Of a stretch of DNA of 64,000 nt, positions 39,441 through 52,798 are shown in pieces. Origin of the DNA: Arcobacter ellisii. Lineage in GTDB: Bacteria; Campylobacterota; Campylobacteria; Campylobacterales; Arcobacteraceae. Each line of letters opens with the position of its first letter. Positions within the stretch are counted from its first letter, which is position 1. The stretch is from NCBI RefSeq assembly GCF_003544915.1, contig NZ_CP032097.1, positions 1,550,001 through 1,614,000 on the forward strand, in the 5' to 3' direction. The notes under the pieces are model-generated. The model had not been told where the DNA came from and did no database searches. It was given only the letters and a program-made list of their open reading frames with translations. The translations under genes and the position numbers were made by a program.

Positions 39441-41102
39441 TCTCAAAAAAGAGTAAAAATCAAATTTTACACTCAACAAACCCCTTTATTAAGGGATTTT
39501 AATTTTAAATTTGGGTGTCTAGCCTATTGATTATCTCTTATTAGCTACAATTTTATATGTTTATTCGTAAAAGAAAAAATCCAAGTGGCAGTATTAGTAT
39601 TCAAATTATTGATAAGAGTAATGGTAAATATAAAGTTGTTGAAACAATAGCATGTGTAAAAGATAAAAAAGAGTTAGAGTTTTATATTGCAAAAGCAGAA
39701 TCAAGATTAAAACAACTTAATCCAAATTTATTTGATGCAGTTGAATTTAATGAGAAAAAACATAGATTTATTGGTATAAAAAATAAAGAGATTTCAGTTG
39801 TAGGACCAGATATTATATTTGGATATATAATGGAATATATAGGCTGTGATAAAATACTTAAAAAATTAAAAGAAAAAGAGTTGTTTAAACAGCTAGTTTT
39901 ATCAAGAATAATTGATCCAGGTAGTAAATTAAATCTTATAGATTATTTGTATATTTATAAACATCAAAATCTTGATAAAAATGAGATATATAGATTTTTA
40001 GATACATTAAGTTTAAATTTAAAAGATAAAATAGAACAATGTATATTTGAATATACATCAATGGTAACTGGTGGAATTAGAGTAAGTTTTTATGATGTAA
40101 CAACATTGTACTTTGAAGCATCAAGTGAAGATGATTTAAGAAAAGTAGGATTTAGTAAAGATGGAAAATTCACAAAACCACAAATAATTTTAGGACTCTT
40201 AACTTCATTAGAAGGTTATCCTTTAGGATTTGAAATACATGAGGGTAATTGCTATGAAGGTAAAACTTTTATTCCAATGCTTGAAAAGTTTCAAAAGAAA
40301 TTTAATATAGAAAAACCAATAGTTGTAGCTGATAGTGGATTACTAAGTGAAGCAAATATATTAGAACTAGAAAAATTGAATTATAGATATATTTTAGGTG
40401 CTAGAATAAAATCAAGCTCAAGTGAAATAAAAAATAAAATCGTATCACTAAATTTAAATGATGAGAAAAATAATGAGACAATATATTTTTCAAAAAATCA
40501 AAAGATGATAGTTTCATATTCACAACAAAGAGCAAAAAAAGATAGATATACAAGAACAAAAAATTATGAGAAATTAAAAATAAAAATAAAATCAGGTAAT
40601 CTTACAAAAGCACATTTAAATAATAAGGGTTATAATAAATATTTAGTACTTTCAGATTCTCAAACAACAATATCAATAGATGAAGATAAATATAATTATG
40701 ATTCAAGCTTTGACGGATTAAAAGGGTTTGTTACAAATGATTTTTCATTAAATCCAACACAAATAATTGAACATTACACAAATCTTTGGCATATAGAAAG
40801 AGCTTTCAGAATTTCTAAAACAGATTTAAAAATTAGACCAATATATCATAGATTAGAACATAGAATATATTCACATATTTTAATTTCATTCGTTGCATAT
40901 ACAGTATATAAAGAGTTTGATAGAAAATTAAAAATAAATAATATTTCAATTAAAAGAAAAAATGCAATAGGATTTATAAAATCTATGTACGGAATAGTTC
41001 ATGATAATGAAATTTCATTATTAGAATTATCTCCAGAACAAGAACAAATATATAAACTATTTTATTAAACCTAATATTGGGTGTCTATTTGAGAAAGTCA
41101 AG
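39433..41102 (+). mobile_element. IS1634-family insertion sequence
   Basis: Perfect 15-bp terminal inverted repeats CTTGACTTTCTCAAA (39433-39447) and its complement (41088-41102) bound one transposase gene. A short direct repeat TTGGGTGTCTA occurs inside both ends. No target duplication was found at the outer borders. It lies at the truncated end of the IS256 element. Confidence 0.85.
39557..41068 (+). CDS. IS1634-family (IS4 superfamily) transposase
   Basis: A 503-residue DDE transposase. Catalytic candidates are Asp in F-Y-D-V-T-T-L near residue 179, Asp in V-V-A-D-S-G-L-L near residue 258, and Glu in I-E-R-A-F-R-I-S-K near residue 417 (the Y-x2-R-x3-E-x6-K-like region of IS4 relatives). 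The length is full for IS1634 and no frameshift is seen, so the element may be active. The ATG is the first in frame. Confidence 0.9.
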   Translation: MFIRKRKNPSGSISIQIIDKSNGKYKVVETIACVKDKKELEFYIAKAESRLKQLNPNLFDAVEFNEKKHRFIGIKNKEISVVGPDIIFGYIMEYIGCDKILKKLKEKELFKQLVLSRIIDPGSKLNLIDYLYIYKHQNLDKNEIYRFLDTLSLNLKDKIEQCIFEYTSMVTGGIRVSFYDVTTLYFEASSEDDLRKVGFSKDGKFTKPQIILGLLTSLEGYPLGFEIHEGNCYEGKTFIPMLEKFQKKFNIEKPIVVADSGLLSEANILELEKLNYRYILGARIKSSSSEIKNKIVSLNLNDEKNNETIYFSKNQKMIVSYSQQRAKKDRYTRTKNYEKLKIKIKSGNLTKAHLNNKGYNKYLVLSDSQTTISIDEDKYNYDSSFDGLKGFVTNDFSLNPTQIIEHYTNLWHIERAFRISKTDLKIRPIYHRLEHRIYSHILISFVAYTVYKEFDRKLKINNISIKRKNAIGFIKSMYGIVHDNEISLLELSPEQEQIYKLFY

Positions 41103-43916: not shown

Positions 43917-44651
43917 ATGTTTGATTTAGTTAAAAAAATGTTATTTATTTTTCTTATCACAACTTGTAGTTTAAATGCTGCAATAAAAGAAGTATCAAAA
44001 AATGAAATAACTCAAATGGAACAATTAGAGTTATTTAAAAGAGCACAAATAAAAATCGTAAAAGCTTTTGATATTGGAAGTTTATATATTCTAAGTATTA
44101 ATGTACAAGGAAATAATGATGAGATTTATTTAACAAAAGATAAAAAACTTATTCTTTCAGGTGATGTAATTGATGTAAATAATGGAATGAAAATTTCAGC
44201 TCCTGTTGATTTAACAAAAGCAAAAGGAAAAGAGGCATTTGTTTATGGAAATGGAAAAGAAGAGTATTATTTATTTACAGACCCAGAGTGTCCATATTGT
44301 AAAAAATTAGAATCATACCTTCCACAAATAAAAGATAAAGTAAAAATAAGAGTATTTTATTTTCCTTTAGAATCACATGAAAATGCAAAAGATTTATCAT
44401 TATACATTATGAGTCAAAAAACATTAAATGCAAAAATTGATGCAATGTTTGATGCAAGTGAAAATTTAGATAAAGTAAAAAATGCAAAATATACACAAGC
44501 CCAACTTGCAAAACTTGAAAAACAATTAGAAGAACAAATTCAATTAGGAATTTCTTTAAATGTTCAAGGAACACCAACAATATTTGACAAAAATGGAAAT
44601 AATATTATTTGGGTTAACTTACTTGAAAAATTTGGAATAGAAGTTAAATAG
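43917..44651 (+). CDS. DsbC/G-like periplasmic thiol:disulfide protein
   Basis: A 244-residue exported thioredoxin-fold protein. The signal peptide covers about 1-22 (ends L-N-A-A). An N-terminal dimerisation-like region (about 25-115) precedes the thioredoxin domain with D-P-E-C-P-Y-C-K-K near residue 122 and cis-proline G-T-P-T-I-F near residue 221. C-P-Y-C is the disulfide-isomerase-type motif. It is chromosomal, separate from the island's Dsb genes. A GTAAAATCA hairpin follows directly. Confidence 0.88.
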   Translation: MFDLVKKMLFIFLITTCSLNAAIKEVSKNEITQMEQLELFKRAQIKIVKAFDIGSLYILSINVQGNNDEIYLTKDKKLILSGDVIDVNNGMKISAPVDLTKAKGKEAFVYGNGKEEYYLFTDPECPYCKKLESYLPQIKDKVKIRVFYFPLESHENAKDLSLYIMSQKTLNAKIDAMFDASENLDKVKNAKYTQAQLAKLEKQLEEQIQLGISLNVQGTPTIFDKNGNNIIWVNLLEKFGIEVK

Positions 44652-44672: not shown

Positions 44673-44718
44673 TATTTTGGTAAAATTTTATTTACTTTTT
44701 AAATCTTTTTGTTAAAAT

Positions 44719-44804
44719 AACGACTCGAGATCTCAGGTAGAGATTCCATCGTTAATTTAAACAAATTTACTGCATGGCCAAAATTAAATTTTAATTTTGG
44801 AGAT
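44719..44804 (+). promoter_or_regulatory. Structured leader, candidate translational RNA switch
   Basis: Upstream of the diiron-oxygenase operon: outer stem AACGA (44719-44723)/TCGTT (44749-44753), internal loop CTCGAG/TCCA, inner stem ATCTC (44730-44734)/GAGAT (44740-44744) with loop AGGTA. Downstream, a 23-bp perfect palindrome (44778-44800) ends in the GG of the Shine-Dalgarno GGAG (44799-44802). GAGAT at 44800-44804 can alternatively pair with ATCTC at 44730-44734. This would exchange an open and a masked ribosome site. A TAAAAT -10-like box is at 44713-44718, which leaves the first stem's inclusion in the RNA uncertain. It matches no riboswitch class I can name. Confidence 0.5.
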
Positions 44805-44809
44805 TCATT

Positions 44810-46060
44810 TTGAATAATCAAAATCATTGTATATCTATATTTACTGGTGATTTACCTCCTTCAAAAGCACTATTTTTGAAACTAGAAAATGCTTTTTTAT
44901 TAGCAAATATTTATGAAATAATTGAAATTATTTCACTAAAAGCAAATATTGAAATTGAACTTCAAGGATGGGCAAAACTTAAAGGTCATCTTTTTTTAGG
45001 TAGAACTACATTAAAAAATCAATACTCTTATAAAATCCAAAAGATAAGTAAAAATTCTTTTACTTCAAAAGCTTTTTGGGGCAAAAAAATGAAAGGTATT
45101 GATACTTCAAATCCAAAACTAAAAGACTTAGAGTTAAGTGAGAAAATTTTAGCAAAAGCTCCAATTGATAATGGGCTTTTAACAAGGGGAATTATAACTC
45201 AAGAAAATAGTCCAATTTATGATTTTGAGTTATCTTTTAAAGAACAAGTTTGGTCAAATCCTATTTCAGTTTTGTATGAAGAAGGAAAAAATCTTCAATG
45301 GAATGCAACAACGGATATTCCTTGGAGTGAAATACCAAATCTAAATCCAGTTTTAGAAAAAGCTGTATGCCAAATCATGACTTATTTAGTTGAAAATGAA
45401 TTTTCAGCTTTATATATTCCTGGAAAATTTATAAGTAAAATAAATCCATACTATATGGAAGTTCCTCTTTTTTTATCATCACTTATGAATGATGAAGCAA
45501 GACATATTGAAGTTTTTACAAAACGTGCAAATGCAAATGGTGGAGGATTTCAATATTCAAGTGAAGTAACTCAACGTTCACTTTTCTCACTTTTTAAAGA
45601 AAATGACTATATAAAAAGTTCATTTTTACTTCATGTTATGGGTGAAGGTACTTTTGTAGATTTACTCTCATTTTTGGAAAAACATATGCCTGATGATGCA
45701 ACAAAAAAAATCATTCGTTTAGCAAAAAGAGATGAAATGCGTCATGTTGCGTATGGTGTTGAACATGTAAAATCAGCCATTGAACAAAATCCAAATAGAA
45801 TAAATGCTTTAAAAAATACTGCTTATAAAAGAAAAGAGTTTATGGATGAAGTAAGTAGTGAATCTTCTATTTTACTTGAATCACTTGCAATTCTAGCAGG
45901 TGGAAGTAATGAGCCAAAGGATTATAAAAGAGGATTTGATTTAGTTGAAGAATTAAAACAAAAAATGAATACAAACAGAATAAAAAGATTAATAGATATA
46001 GGTATGGATGAAGATTTAGCAAATGATATTTCTAAAGTTCATACACCAAATTTTATGTAG
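44810..46060 (+). CDS. TusA-like domain fused to a ferritin-like diiron oxygenase domain
   Basis: A 416-residue protein beginning at a TTG 7 bp after GGAG. Residues about 8-80 resemble TusA/SirA sulfur-carrier folds (ending W-A-K-L-K-G-H, as W-C-R-x-x-G-H in the family), but the catalytic cysteine position reads L-P-P-S. Residues about 165-370 are a four-helix diiron domain: Glu in V-E-N-E-F-S-A-L near 208, E-A-R-H near 230, Glu in M-G-E-G-T-F near 279, and E-M-R-H near 305. Both E-x-x-H pairs are intact, so O2 chemistry is likely. The substrate is unknown. It is first in a three-gene operon. Confidence 0.7.
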   Translation: MNNQNHCISIFTGDLPPSKALFLKLENAFLLANIYEIIEIISLKANIEIELQGWAKLKGHLFLGRTTLKNQYSYKIQKISKNSFTSKAFWGKKMKGIDTSNPKLKDLELSEKILAKAPIDNGLLTRGIITQENSPIYDFELSFKEQVWSNPISVLYEEGKNLQWNATTDIPWSEIPNLNPVLEKAVCQIMTYLVENEFSALYIPGKFISKINPYYMEVPLFLSSLMNDEARHIEVFTKRANANGGGFQYSSEVTQRSLFSLFKENDYIKSSFLLHVMGEGTFVDLLSFLEKHMPDDATKKIIRLAKRDEMRHVAYGVEHVKSAIEQNPNRINALKNTAYKRKEFMDEVSSESSILLESLAILAGGSNEPKDYKRGFDLVEELKQKMNTNRIKRLIDIGMDEDLANDISKVHTPNFM

Positions 46061-46070
46061 TAGGGGAAAA

Positions 46071-47198
46071 ATGTCAAATTTATATAATGAAATGTTAGAG
46101 TTTGCAAAAGAGAATATTGCACCATATACTAACAATGTGGATATTGAGGGAAAATTTCCAGTTGAAAGTTTCAAAGCTATCAAGGGAAAAAAATTAACAG
46201 GTCTTTTAGTTCCAAAAGAGTTTGGAGGAATGGGACTAAATTTTCAAGACCATACACAAACTATTTTAGCTTTTGCAAATTATTGTGCAACAACAGCTTT
46301 ATGTTATATGATGCACAATGTTGCAACAAATTGTATTGCAACTTATGGAAGTAATGAACTAAAAAAAGAGTTTTTACCAAGAATTGCAAATGGTGAAATT
46401 ATGTTAGCACTTGCATATAGTGAAAGTGGAACAGGAACACACTTTTATAATCCAGAAATTAAAGTTACAAAAGAGAATGAAACTTTATTTATGAATGGTA
46501 GAAAAAGTTTTGTTACATCTGCTACTTATGCTGATTATTATTTAATTGATGCAAACTCTGTTGAAAGTGAAGGTTTAGATAACTGGATTATTTCAAAAGA
46601 TTTAGCTGGAATTACTTTTGAAGAGAGTGCTTGGAATGGTCTTGGTATGAGAGGAAATGCTTCTTGTCCAATGATTTTAAAAGATGTAAGAATTGATGAA
46701 AAATCAAGGATTGGTGCAAGTGGAAGTGGACTTGATCAAATATTTAATTGTGTTGGACCATTTTTTATCATGGGATTAGCAGCAGTTTATAGTGGAGTTG
46801 CTTTAAATGCTTGTAATTCAATCAATGAGTATTCAATGAATAGAAAATATAGTGATGAAACAGCTTTATGTAATATTCCAACTGTTCAAAATCATATCTC
46901 TGAAATCTATACAAATGCAGCAAGTGCGAAATATTTTACATTAAGTGCTGCGAAAAGTGTAATTGAAGCTGACCCAATGGCACAAGCAAATGTATTAGCT
47001 GCAAGAATTCATGCATCTGAAATGGCTGTAAAAGTTTGTACACTAGCTATGAAGATTGGTGGAGGTACAGCATATGCTAAAAGAATAAATATTGAAAGAT
47101 TGTTAAGAGATTCTTTAGCAGCACAAGTTATGGCTCCAAGTACTGATGTTCTTACGACTTGGCTTGGAAAAGCTTTAACAAATCAATCAATTTTATAA
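46071..47198 (+). CDS. Acyl-CoA-dehydrogenase-like flavoprotein, probably a monooxygenase-type member
   Basis: The start at ATG 46071 follows TAGGGGAAAA; a longer frame from 46023 overlaps the upstream gene and has no ribosome site. The 375-residue protein has the ACAD three-domain fold: L-V-P-K-E-F-G-G-M-G-L near 42, A-Y-S-E-S-G-T-G near 114, and C-terminal K-I-G-G-G-T-A-Y-A near 327. The catalytic glutamate expected near the end of true dehydrogenases is not seen (M-A-P-S-T-D instead). That pattern occurs in flavin monooxygenases of this fold such as DszC/SfnC-like enzymes. The substrate is unknown. Confidence 0.8.
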   Translation: MSNLYNEMLEFAKENIAPYTNNVDIEGKFPVESFKAIKGKKLTGLLVPKEFGGMGLNFQDHTQTILAFANYCATTALCYMMHNVATNCIATYGSNELKKEFLPRIANGEIMLALAYSESGTGTHFYNPEIKVTKENETLFMNGRKSFVTSATYADYYLIDANSVESEGLDNWIISKDLAGITFEESAWNGLGMRGNASCPMILKDVRIDEKSRIGASGSGLDQIFNCVGPFFIMGLAAVYSGVALNACNSINEYSMNRKYSDETALCNIPTVQNHISEIYTNAASAKYFTLSAAKSVIEADPMAQANVLAARIHASEMAVKVCTLAMKIGGGTAYAKRINIERLLRDSLAAQVMAPSTDVLTTWLGKALTNQSIL

Positions 47199-47207
47199 GG
47201 ATAAAAA

Positions 47208-48038
47208 ATGCAAAAACCAATAGTTGTGGGTTCAGTTGCTTATGACCCAAAAGTTGTACCAATTTGGGATATTATTAGAGATTATTTTAATGATAATGGA
47301 ATAAGGCTTGATTATATTCTATTTTCAAACTATGAAGCACAAATTGAATATTTATTATCTGGAAAAATAGATATTGCATGGAATACAAATGTTGCTTGGG
47401 TGCGAACTTATGAATTAAGTAATCAAAAAGCACAAGCTTTACTTATGAGAGATACAGATATTGATTTTAAATCTGTGTTTATCACAAAAGCAAAAAATGG
47501 TATTAAATCAATTCAAGATTTAAAAGGTAAAAAGTTTGGTCTTGGAAGTGCAGATTCAGCTCAAGCAGCAATTTTACCTTTAAAATATCTACAAAATGAA
47601 CTAAAAGAAAAAATCAATGAAGTTGAAATCATTAAATTTAATTCAGATTTAGGAAAACATGGAGATACAGGAAGAAGTGAATTTGATATCATCGAAGCAA
47701 TAAAAGAAGATGAAATTGATGCAGGAGCAATTGGTATTAGCACTTGGATTAGAATTATTGAAGAGGGATTATTTCCTGCAGGTGAAATCGAATCTTTTTA
47801 TGTAAGTGAGGGATATTGTCATTGTAACTTTACAGCTCTGAATAGTTTAGATGAAAAAGTGAAAAAAACATTTGTTGATATGATGCTTTCACAAGACCCA
47901 AATGAACCAATCATCAAAAAAATGATGCAAATGGAAGGTTTAAATAAATGGGTTGTTACAACTACTGAAGAATTAAAAGGTTATGATGTTTTAACACAAG
48001 CTATGTTTGAACAAGATTTAATGAAAAATAATTGGTAA
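47208..48038 (+). CDS. PhnD/NMT1-like binding-fold protein without signal peptide
   Basis: A 276-residue type-II periplasmic-binding-fold protein of the PhnD group (G-S-V-A-Y-D-P near 8, I-D-I-A-W-N-T-N-V-A near 58, D-L-K-G-K-K-F-G-L-G near 104). No signal peptide or lipobox is present, so it should be cytosolic, and there are no ABC permease genes nearby. Cytosolic members of this fold include enzymes (THI5, MqnA/MqnD). With the two oxidative enzymes it likely forms one biosynthetic or catabolic pathway (inference). It has several cysteines and histidines near residue 204 (G-Y-C-H-C-N). Confidence 0.75.
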   Translation: MQKPIVVGSVAYDPKVVPIWDIIRDYFNDNGIRLDYILFSNYEAQIEYLLSGKIDIAWNTNVAWVRTYELSNQKAQALLMRDTDIDFKSVFITKAKNGIKSIQDLKGKKFGLGSADSAQAAILPLKYLQNELKEKINEVEIIKFNSDLGKHGDTGRSEFDIIEAIKEDEIDAGAIGISTWIRIIEEGLFPAGEIESFYVSEGYCHCNFTALNSLDEKVKKTFVDMMLSQDPNEPIIKKMMQMEGLNKWVVTTTEELKGYDVLTQAMFEQDLMKNNW

Positions 48039-52410: not shown

Positions 52411-52460
52411 GTAAGTAAGGACGACCTTACCTCTACACTTATTTTAGAGGACGACCTCAA
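52411..52460 (+). promoter_or_regulatory. Guanidine-II (mini-ykkC) riboswitch
   Basis: Two short hairpins, each with an ACGA loop: GTAAGG-ACGA-CCTTAC (52415-52430) and GAGG-ACGA-CCTC (52447-52458), separated by 16 nt. Two ACGR-loop stems in tandem define the mini-ykkC class, which senses guanidinium. The following AAAGGAAATTTT ribosome site and SMR exporter gene fit its known targets. Confidence 0.93.
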
Positions 52461-52480
52461 TTTTTTTTAAAGGAAATTTT

Positions 52481-52798
52481 ATGAGTTGGGTCACTCTTAT
52501 TATTGCTGGAATTTTTGAAATATTCTGGGCAATTGGTCTTAAATACACAGATGGTTTTACAAAATTAATCCCTAGTTTACTTACAATATTTGCTATGTTA
52601 ATTAGTTTTTGGTTATTAAGTATTTCACTAAAAACTCTTCCACTTGGAACTGCTTATGCTGTTTGGGTAGGAATAGGAACAATTGGAACTGTAATAGCTG
52701 GAGTAATTCTTTTTAATGATTCATTAAATCTATTAAGAATCGTAAGTATAATTTTTATAATTCTTGGTATTATTGGATTAAAAATCACAACTTCATAA
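52481..52798 (+). CDS. gdx: Guanidinium exporter Gdx (SugE-type SMR protein)
   Basis: A 105-residue four-helix SMR transporter. Helix 1 carries the essential glutamate in G-I-F-E-I-F-W-A-I-G, a SugE/Gdx pattern rather than EmrE; helix 3 has Y-A-V-W-V-G-I-G-T-I-G. The guanidine-II riboswitch immediately upstream strongly supports guanidinium/H+ antiport. The DASS transporter gene follows after 10 bp and may be co-transcribed. Confidence 0.95.
   Translation: MSWVTLIIAGIFEIFWAIGLKYTDGFTKLIPSLLTIFAMLISFWLLSISLKTLPLGTAYAVWVGIGTIGTVIAGVILFNDSLNLLRIVSIIFIILGIIGLKITTS

Follow-up and report, generated by a model that had tools for sequence, protein, structure and literature searches.

A conserved, predicted cytoplasmic oxidation operon in Arcobacter ellisii with an exchangeable third enzyme and a candidate riboswitch leader

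Several described systems resemble parts of the locus reported here. The TusA-like protein YedF has a known link to selenium, and selD genes that stand as orphans imply an unknown trait (PMC5322559, PMC9312934). The folate-independent methionine synthase MesD/MesX (PMC7857596) combines a core MetE with an O2-dependent partner, while the mycobacterial Rv1678–Rv1681 cassette (NCBIfam families NF049986, NF049984, NF049985 and NF049973) contains a flavoprotein and a binding-fold protein, and the literature on Rv1679, Rv1680, Rv1681, FadE16 and MoeX consists of diagnostic or annotation papers only. The stretch of DNA analysed here (the window) comprises 64,000 nucleotides of the complete 2.8-Mb genome of Arcobacter ellisii (NZ_CP032097.1, positions 1,550,001–1,614,000) and carries, at 44810–48038, a head-to-tail trio of plus-strand genes for a TusA-like/diiron protein (DIIR), an acyl-CoA-dehydrogenase-fold flavoprotein (ACAD) and a cytosolic protein of the PhnD/PtxB binding fold (SBP). 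As judged from sequence, these genes are a real, widely conserved and undescribed operon with a predicted role in cytoplasmic oxidation. Comparison of loci shows the operon to be a unit, with a core of ACAD and SBP, an exchangeable third enzyme and, in this lineage, a structured RNA leader.

An earlier sequence-only reading of this region had proposed that three tightly spaced genes co-function in an unassigned pathway and had suggested a gene-cluster search as a check. The spacing is borne out: DIIR (44810..46060, 416 residues) starts at a TTG codon 7 nt past a GGAG, a start common to most examined Arcobacteraceae leaders, and is followed after 10 bp by ACAD (46071..47198, 375 residues; the start at 46023 in the open reading frame list is too early) and after a further 9 bp by SBP (47208..48038, 276 residues). 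A scan for SBP across bacterial and archaeal genomes returned 46 loci, the closest named ones belonging to Aliarcobacter. The order DIIR-ACAD-SBP recurs in about 45 loci from two phyla, including nearly every sufficiently long Campylobacterota or Brachyspira locus, and is kept in Arcobacteraceae, Helicobacteraceae, Sulfuricurvum and Brachyspira, while the flanks vary and no constant neighbour besides the trio was found among the examined Campylobacterota and Brachyspira loci. No characterised pathway with the full trio was found in database and literature searches, so the proposal of a conserved but unassigned pathway stands.

The trio is patchily distributed (18 of 100 relatives; SBP in 40 of 298 Campylobacterota), a pattern consistent with loss and transfer. 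DIIR was not found in the plasmid collection, where ACAD-SBP occurs on three actinobacterial plasmids, nor in any of 298 Bacillota genomes apart from one 'Clostridia' metagenome-assembled genome with a Helicobacter-like contig (JAAUYS010000151, locus L031), whose trio is nearly identical to those of the Helicobacter loci L034 and L043; the contig was probably misbinned. The YeiH/YeiE genes that adjoin the trio here had been taken as a hint of sulfur chemistry. Only one further sampled locus (L022) shares them; they were rejected as pathway members and the hint fails because they are not conserved neighbours.

DIIR joins a TusA-like domain (approximately residues 6–77) to a ferritin-like diiron oxidase domain (approximately residues 143–412). 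A profile of 17 relatives matched TusA structures first (1dcj, E 1.6e-4), Pfam TusA matched DIIR relatives (L046, E 6.9e-6), and the N-terminus of the AlphaFold model has the beta-alpha-beta-alpha-beta-beta order of TusA. The CPxP cysteine of TusA is absent from the aligned DIIR rows, with LPPSK or similar in its place, in agreement with the cysteine loss noted previously, and a Pfam domain scan of DIIR found no DsrE domain. The fold of the diiron domain is nearest to VlmB, aldehyde-deformylating oxygenase and R2lox (Z ~17–20), although DIIR scores only 32.4 bits on the NCBIfam R2lox model, under its 194-bit cut-off. E229/H232 and E309/H312 align with both E-x-x-H pairs of R2lox, and E195/E197 and E279, invariant among aligned relatives, are predicted to be the remaining ligands, which accords with the complete diiron site claimed from sequence alone.

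The other two proteins likewise have the features first ascribed to them. ACAD has a normal acyl-CoA dehydrogenase fold by sequence in which the catalytic glutamate is replaced (RDSLAAQVMAPSTD): all 21 aligned rows have Ala (MAPSTD) at the position of the YEG glutamate, and a glutamate at another site is possible. Its nearest NCBIfam family is Rv1679/FadE16 (NF049984; 271.5 bits, under the 600-bit cut-off), and it also resembles the 3-sulfinopropanoyl-CoA desulfinase and SfnB families. SBP belongs to the PhnD/PtxB branch of the type II SBP fold (Pfam PF12974, E 7e-26; Z 24.6 to phosphate-bound 7s6g), and its model (pLDDT 93.8) matches phosphite, methylphosphonate and arsenate binders best (Z 23–25). 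The protein starts MQKPIVVGSVAY, with the first strand at residue 5 and without a signal peptide or lipobox, and no transporter genes were found as conserved neighbours of the trio in the sampled loci. Its conserved motifs are WNTNVAW, GSADSAQAAIL, GKHGDTGRSE and HCNF; the nearest NCBIfam family is the Rv1680 SBP-like family (NF049985; 320.2 bits, under the 400-bit cut-off), and it also scores on the 'putative selenate' SBP model.

In Actinobacteria the third enzyme can be of a different kind. In all eight genomes fetched first, ACAD-SBP is followed by a radical-SAM protein whose score exceeds the cut-off of the Rv1681 family; the same eight genomes have no full-length DIIR, only weak diiron-domain paralogues, and the Rv1681-type radical SAM protein occurs in none of seven DIIR genomes. 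In other actinobacteria, DIIR either follows ACAD-SBP at the position of the radical-SAM gene or comes first. The SBP pocket motifs (WNTN.A., GKHGDTG) are alike with either partner. The radical-SAM enzyme (Rv1681 family) probably also carries a TusA-like N-terminal domain: its first ~65 residues align with that of DIIR (hhalign E 2.4e-4, against 0.2–0.5 for five control slices), and Pfam TusA matches one member with E 0.003. A PDB search with this N-terminus gave no convincing match. In a tree of ACAD and SBP, in which deep support is uneven, the radical-SAM group lies inside the actinobacterial branch, and the swap therefore looks derived there. This replacement identifies ACAD and SBP as the core of a system with an exchangeable step, and it leaves the earlier description of two O2-type enzymes only half supported: the diiron protein gives way to a radical-SAM protein in Actinobacteria, so that O2 appears to be one of at least two solutions, and the flavoprotein is only a putative user of O2.

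In a third version, MetE-like and OsmC-like genes come after ACAD-SBP (L165:4705–8650, L168:4516–8218, L170:1223–4779 and L171:4898–8640); it was found in genomes of the Campylobacter group and in a single actinobacterium. Its SBP pocket differs (WNSP, HGDHVGG), and the same SBP motif occurs in L166 with no adjoining MetE-like gene. By eye, the MetE-like proteins have intact zinc and homocysteine residues (HxC, E, C; GS, GE, DEP), and the usual OsmC cysteines seem to be missing from the OsmC-like proteins in three of the loci (L165, L168 and L171). This arrangement may possibly be a further folate-independent, methionine-synthase-like system. Near some actinobacterial ACAD-SBP pairs (L225:208–9853, L165:337–4628 and L223:1336–10261) are genes for DoxX/DoxD-type proteins, other radical-SAM proteins, glycosyltransferases and a TIGR04282 'arsenosugar' glycosyltransferase-like protein, and the M. 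vanbaalenii plasmid (L223) also encodes CcdA, a redoxin, a CMD protein and a protein resembling deiodinases.

Upstream of DIIR, a putative -10 box (TAAAAT, 44713..44718, plus strand) with a weak -35 (TTTACT at 44691) gives a 9/12 promoter match, a score not above chance in the region; TAnAAT stands at the same place in relatives, and the box is likely that of the operon. It precedes a structured leader on the same strand (44729..44806), a candidate translational riboswitch of three hairpins: P1 (44729–44735/44739–44745), P2 (44746–44749/44774–44777) and P3 (44779–44785/44793–44799), the last reaching into the Shine-Dalgarno GGAG (44799–44802). Across Arcobacteraceae, the 75–85 nt before DIIR hold these hairpins, with the start of the Shine-Dalgarno within P3. 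In an alignment of 16 sequences, 94.4% of pair cells were standard and six pairs had changed on both sides, a degree of pairing equalled by none of 500 shuffles and by no slid control. No match to Rfam 15 at the gathering score was obtained for the leader, which is thus a candidate for a riboswitch outside the known Rfam classes. When P1 was sought as a stem of 5 bp with a [CA]G[GT]NN loop of 5 nt, it turned up in 27 of the 32 leaders scanned (Arcobacteraceae, Helicobacteraceae, Sulfuricurvum and Brachyspira), where shuffled sequences would give 1.3, and in 8 of 224 coding windows. The 22 distinct P1 hairpins have arms that differ by lineage yet are 99% paired (shuffles 64%), a figure to be read with the fact that these hairpins were chosen from the leaders because they pair. 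Inspection by eye for a pseudoknot joining the P1 loop to the sequence ahead of P3 gave inconsistent support, and none is claimed. Among 100 relatives, the leader model found 17 sites, of which 15, in as many genomes, lie directly before the trio; the leader was not found on other genes that might give a clue to its ligand, the two remaining sites being a partial copy at a contig end and a relict (L087, G022:C7:35643–35718) whose P1 loop is mutated and which is followed not by the trio but by a gene for a 4Fe-4S protein; this points to recent loss of the operon in that genome.

Taken together, the components suggest a single cytosolic pathway or complex that acts on an SBP-bound oxyanion through flavoprotein oxidation and a TusA-tethered diiron or radical-SAM step, under a metabolite-sensing leader, and this reading is given a probability of roughly 0.58. 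SBP, presumably no longer serving transport, would close on a small substrate with a phosphite- or phosphonate-like oxyanion head group and present it to the flavoprotein for oxidation by a reaction independent of the dehydrogenase glutamate. The TusA-like domain could then dock the product, or a carrier bearing it, beside the diiron centre, which would complete a hydrogen-abstraction or oxygenation step, a task that may fall to radical SAM in some actinobacterial versions. The leader would sense the product or a related metabolite and mask the ribosome-binding site that serves the TTG start. As substrate, a small oxyanion is the leading guess, and selenophosphate may be that oxyanion.

A new SelD-dependent selenium trait, in which SBP would bind selenophosphate as a phosphite analogue, ACAD and DIIR would make a selenium-containing small molecule or cofactor or alter one, and the leader would sense that compound, is a tentative proposal held well below even odds. 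It draws on the distribution of selD, present in all 40 SBP-positive Campylobacterota genomes versus 181 of 256 others (Fisher p 6e-6, phylogeny ignored) and in 6/6 actinobacterial genomes of the diiron type. In Sulfuricurvum, selD lies directly upstream of DIIR, in two of those genomes as a second copy in addition to one elsewhere, and in the actinobacterial locus L164 selD, selA and selB lie directly upstream of the cassette on the same strand. The score of SBP on the selenate model, with phosphite binders as its closest matches, and the association of TusA-like YedF with selenium point the same way. The TusA-like domain had been read as a hint at sulfur; it does point to chalcogen handling, but the genomic context, through selD, favours selenium over sulfur. 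Several observations weigh against the pathway proposed above or its selenium chemistry. The selD association takes no account of phylogeny and selD is common anyway, being present in 75% of sampled Campylobacterota, while in genomes of the radical-SAM type it occurs in only 3 of 10, against 162 of 246 in the background; background frequencies of selD run from 66 to 75%. In A. ellisii itself, selD (G000:C1:1846590–1847510, outside the window) lies ~250 kb from the trio; its single in-frame TGA would fit a SelD that contains selenocysteine. The DIIR model is of moderate confidence only (pLDDT 74.9), hhalign probabilities for the TusA-like radical-SAM N-terminus (14–44%) are weak in absolute terms, and Brachyspira is regarded as anaerobic yet has the O2-type enzyme. 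That radical-SAM cassettes share the SBP pocket motif but are often without selD argues against selenophosphate as a universal substrate, and selenium is therefore kept as the leading reading for the diiron version only, where a selenium-bearing substrate (selenophosphate or a derived seleno-compound) would be the most likely, if weakly supported, class. The most specific form of this idea, an unrecognised trait in which a cytosolic selenophosphate-binding subunit, a flavoprotein and a TusA-tethered diiron enzyme would together produce a new selenium-containing small molecule, with a riboswitch of a new class to sense it, is quite improbable.

Sulfur could enter by another route, with the cassette oxidising an organosulfur compound so that its sulfur, or a methyl group, becomes available to make methionine. 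The MetE-like protein of the third version, which looks intact by eye, and its OsmC-like partner, the resemblance of ACAD to the desulfinase and SfnB families, and the presence of a MetE domain in 38/40 SBP-positive versus 166/256 SBP-negative genomes (p 3e-5) would all suit such a pathway, but with an SBP pocket of its own the MetE-like version need not share its chemistry with the others, loss of MetE in reduced genomes may account for the co-occurrence, and YeiH/YeiE are not conserved; this account is considered unlikely. Far less probable again is a THI5-like vitamin pathway, in which SBP would be an HMP-P (hydroxymethylpyrimidine phosphate) synthase-like enzyme in place of ThiC. SBP does match Pfam NMT1/THI5 (1e-9), and THI5 appears at Foldseek rank 43, but PhnD and PtxB are much better matches, and ThiC is present in this genome and in 57 of 60 relatives, nearly all trio-bearing ones included; replacement of ThiC was rejected on these grounds, and its co-presence largely refutes the reading. 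As for the leader, it is possible, though doubtful, that it is a protein-binding element, an RNA thermometer or a plain translational hairpin rather than a riboswitch. Outside Arcobacteraceae P1 alone is clearly conserved, the A+U-rich P3 over the Shine-Dalgarno could serve as a thermosensor, and the L033 leader folds no better than its shuffles. However, compensatory changes in the P1 arms across two phyla, around a conserved NG-containing pentaloop, would be unexpected for a DNA operator, and a simple thermometer would not need P1 and P2.

The RNA leader, the exchangeable third enzyme and the link to selD go beyond what the sequence-only reading had offered. Bacteria that live with hosts (Helicobacter, Brachyspira, Aliarcobacter) conserve the cassette although it has no assigned function, and Rv1678–Rv1681, its counterpart in Actinobacteria, is no better explained. 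A diiron enzyme that depends on O2 and a radical-SAM enzyme that does not, joined to the same kind of small domain, replace one another here, which would make an unusually clean natural experiment on how a single step is solved in the presence and in the absence of oxygen. The selD linkage opens the old question of unknown traits that depend on SelD to direct testing, and the ligand of the leader, if it is a riboswitch, would name the pathway metabolite.

Other features of the window lie around the trio. A gene for a DsbC/DsbG-like periplasmic thiol protein (43917–44651) stands directly upstream of the leader, as it does in a few close Aliarcobacter relatives and not elsewhere, and a transposase-like open reading frame (39557–41068) lies further upstream. 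Downstream, a Guanidine-II (mini-ykkC) riboswitch (52413–52459, 40.7 bits) precedes a small-multidrug-resistance-type gene (52481–52798), together an ordinary guanidine exporter arrangement (52413–52798).

Compared with known systems, DIIR shares the ferritin-like diiron fold and the E-x-x-H ligand pairs of R2lox, the azoxy synthase VlmB and aldehyde-deformylating oxygenase, but at ~15–20% identity and with a TusA-like N-terminus. YedF (TIGR03527) has a TusA-like domain and a selenium-linked genome context in common with it, but combines TusA with DsrE and is without a diiron domain (PMC5322559), whereas in DIIR the TusA-like domain is fused to a diiron oxidase. SBP has the fold and the oxyanion-site motifs (a Ser-containing helix start and G-x-H) of the phosphite-binding proteins PhnD1 and PtxB and of ArrX/AioX, but is cytosolic, without signal peptide or transporter, and has the extra conserved HCNF and WNTN. 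MesD/MesX parallels the third version of the cassette in its O2-dependent partner of a core MetE; there is, however, no DUF1852 here, and a MetE-like protein occurs in that version only and not beside the window trio. The closest likeness is to the mycobacterial Rv1678–Rv1681 cassette. The window proteins fall under the curated cut-offs of its families, and an Rv1678-like membrane protein is absent from the window set, but homologous ACAD and SBP genes sit side by side in the order seen here, the two SBP proteins share their pocket motifs, and the third enzyme, a radical-SAM rather than a diiron protein, has a probable TusA-like N-terminus as well.

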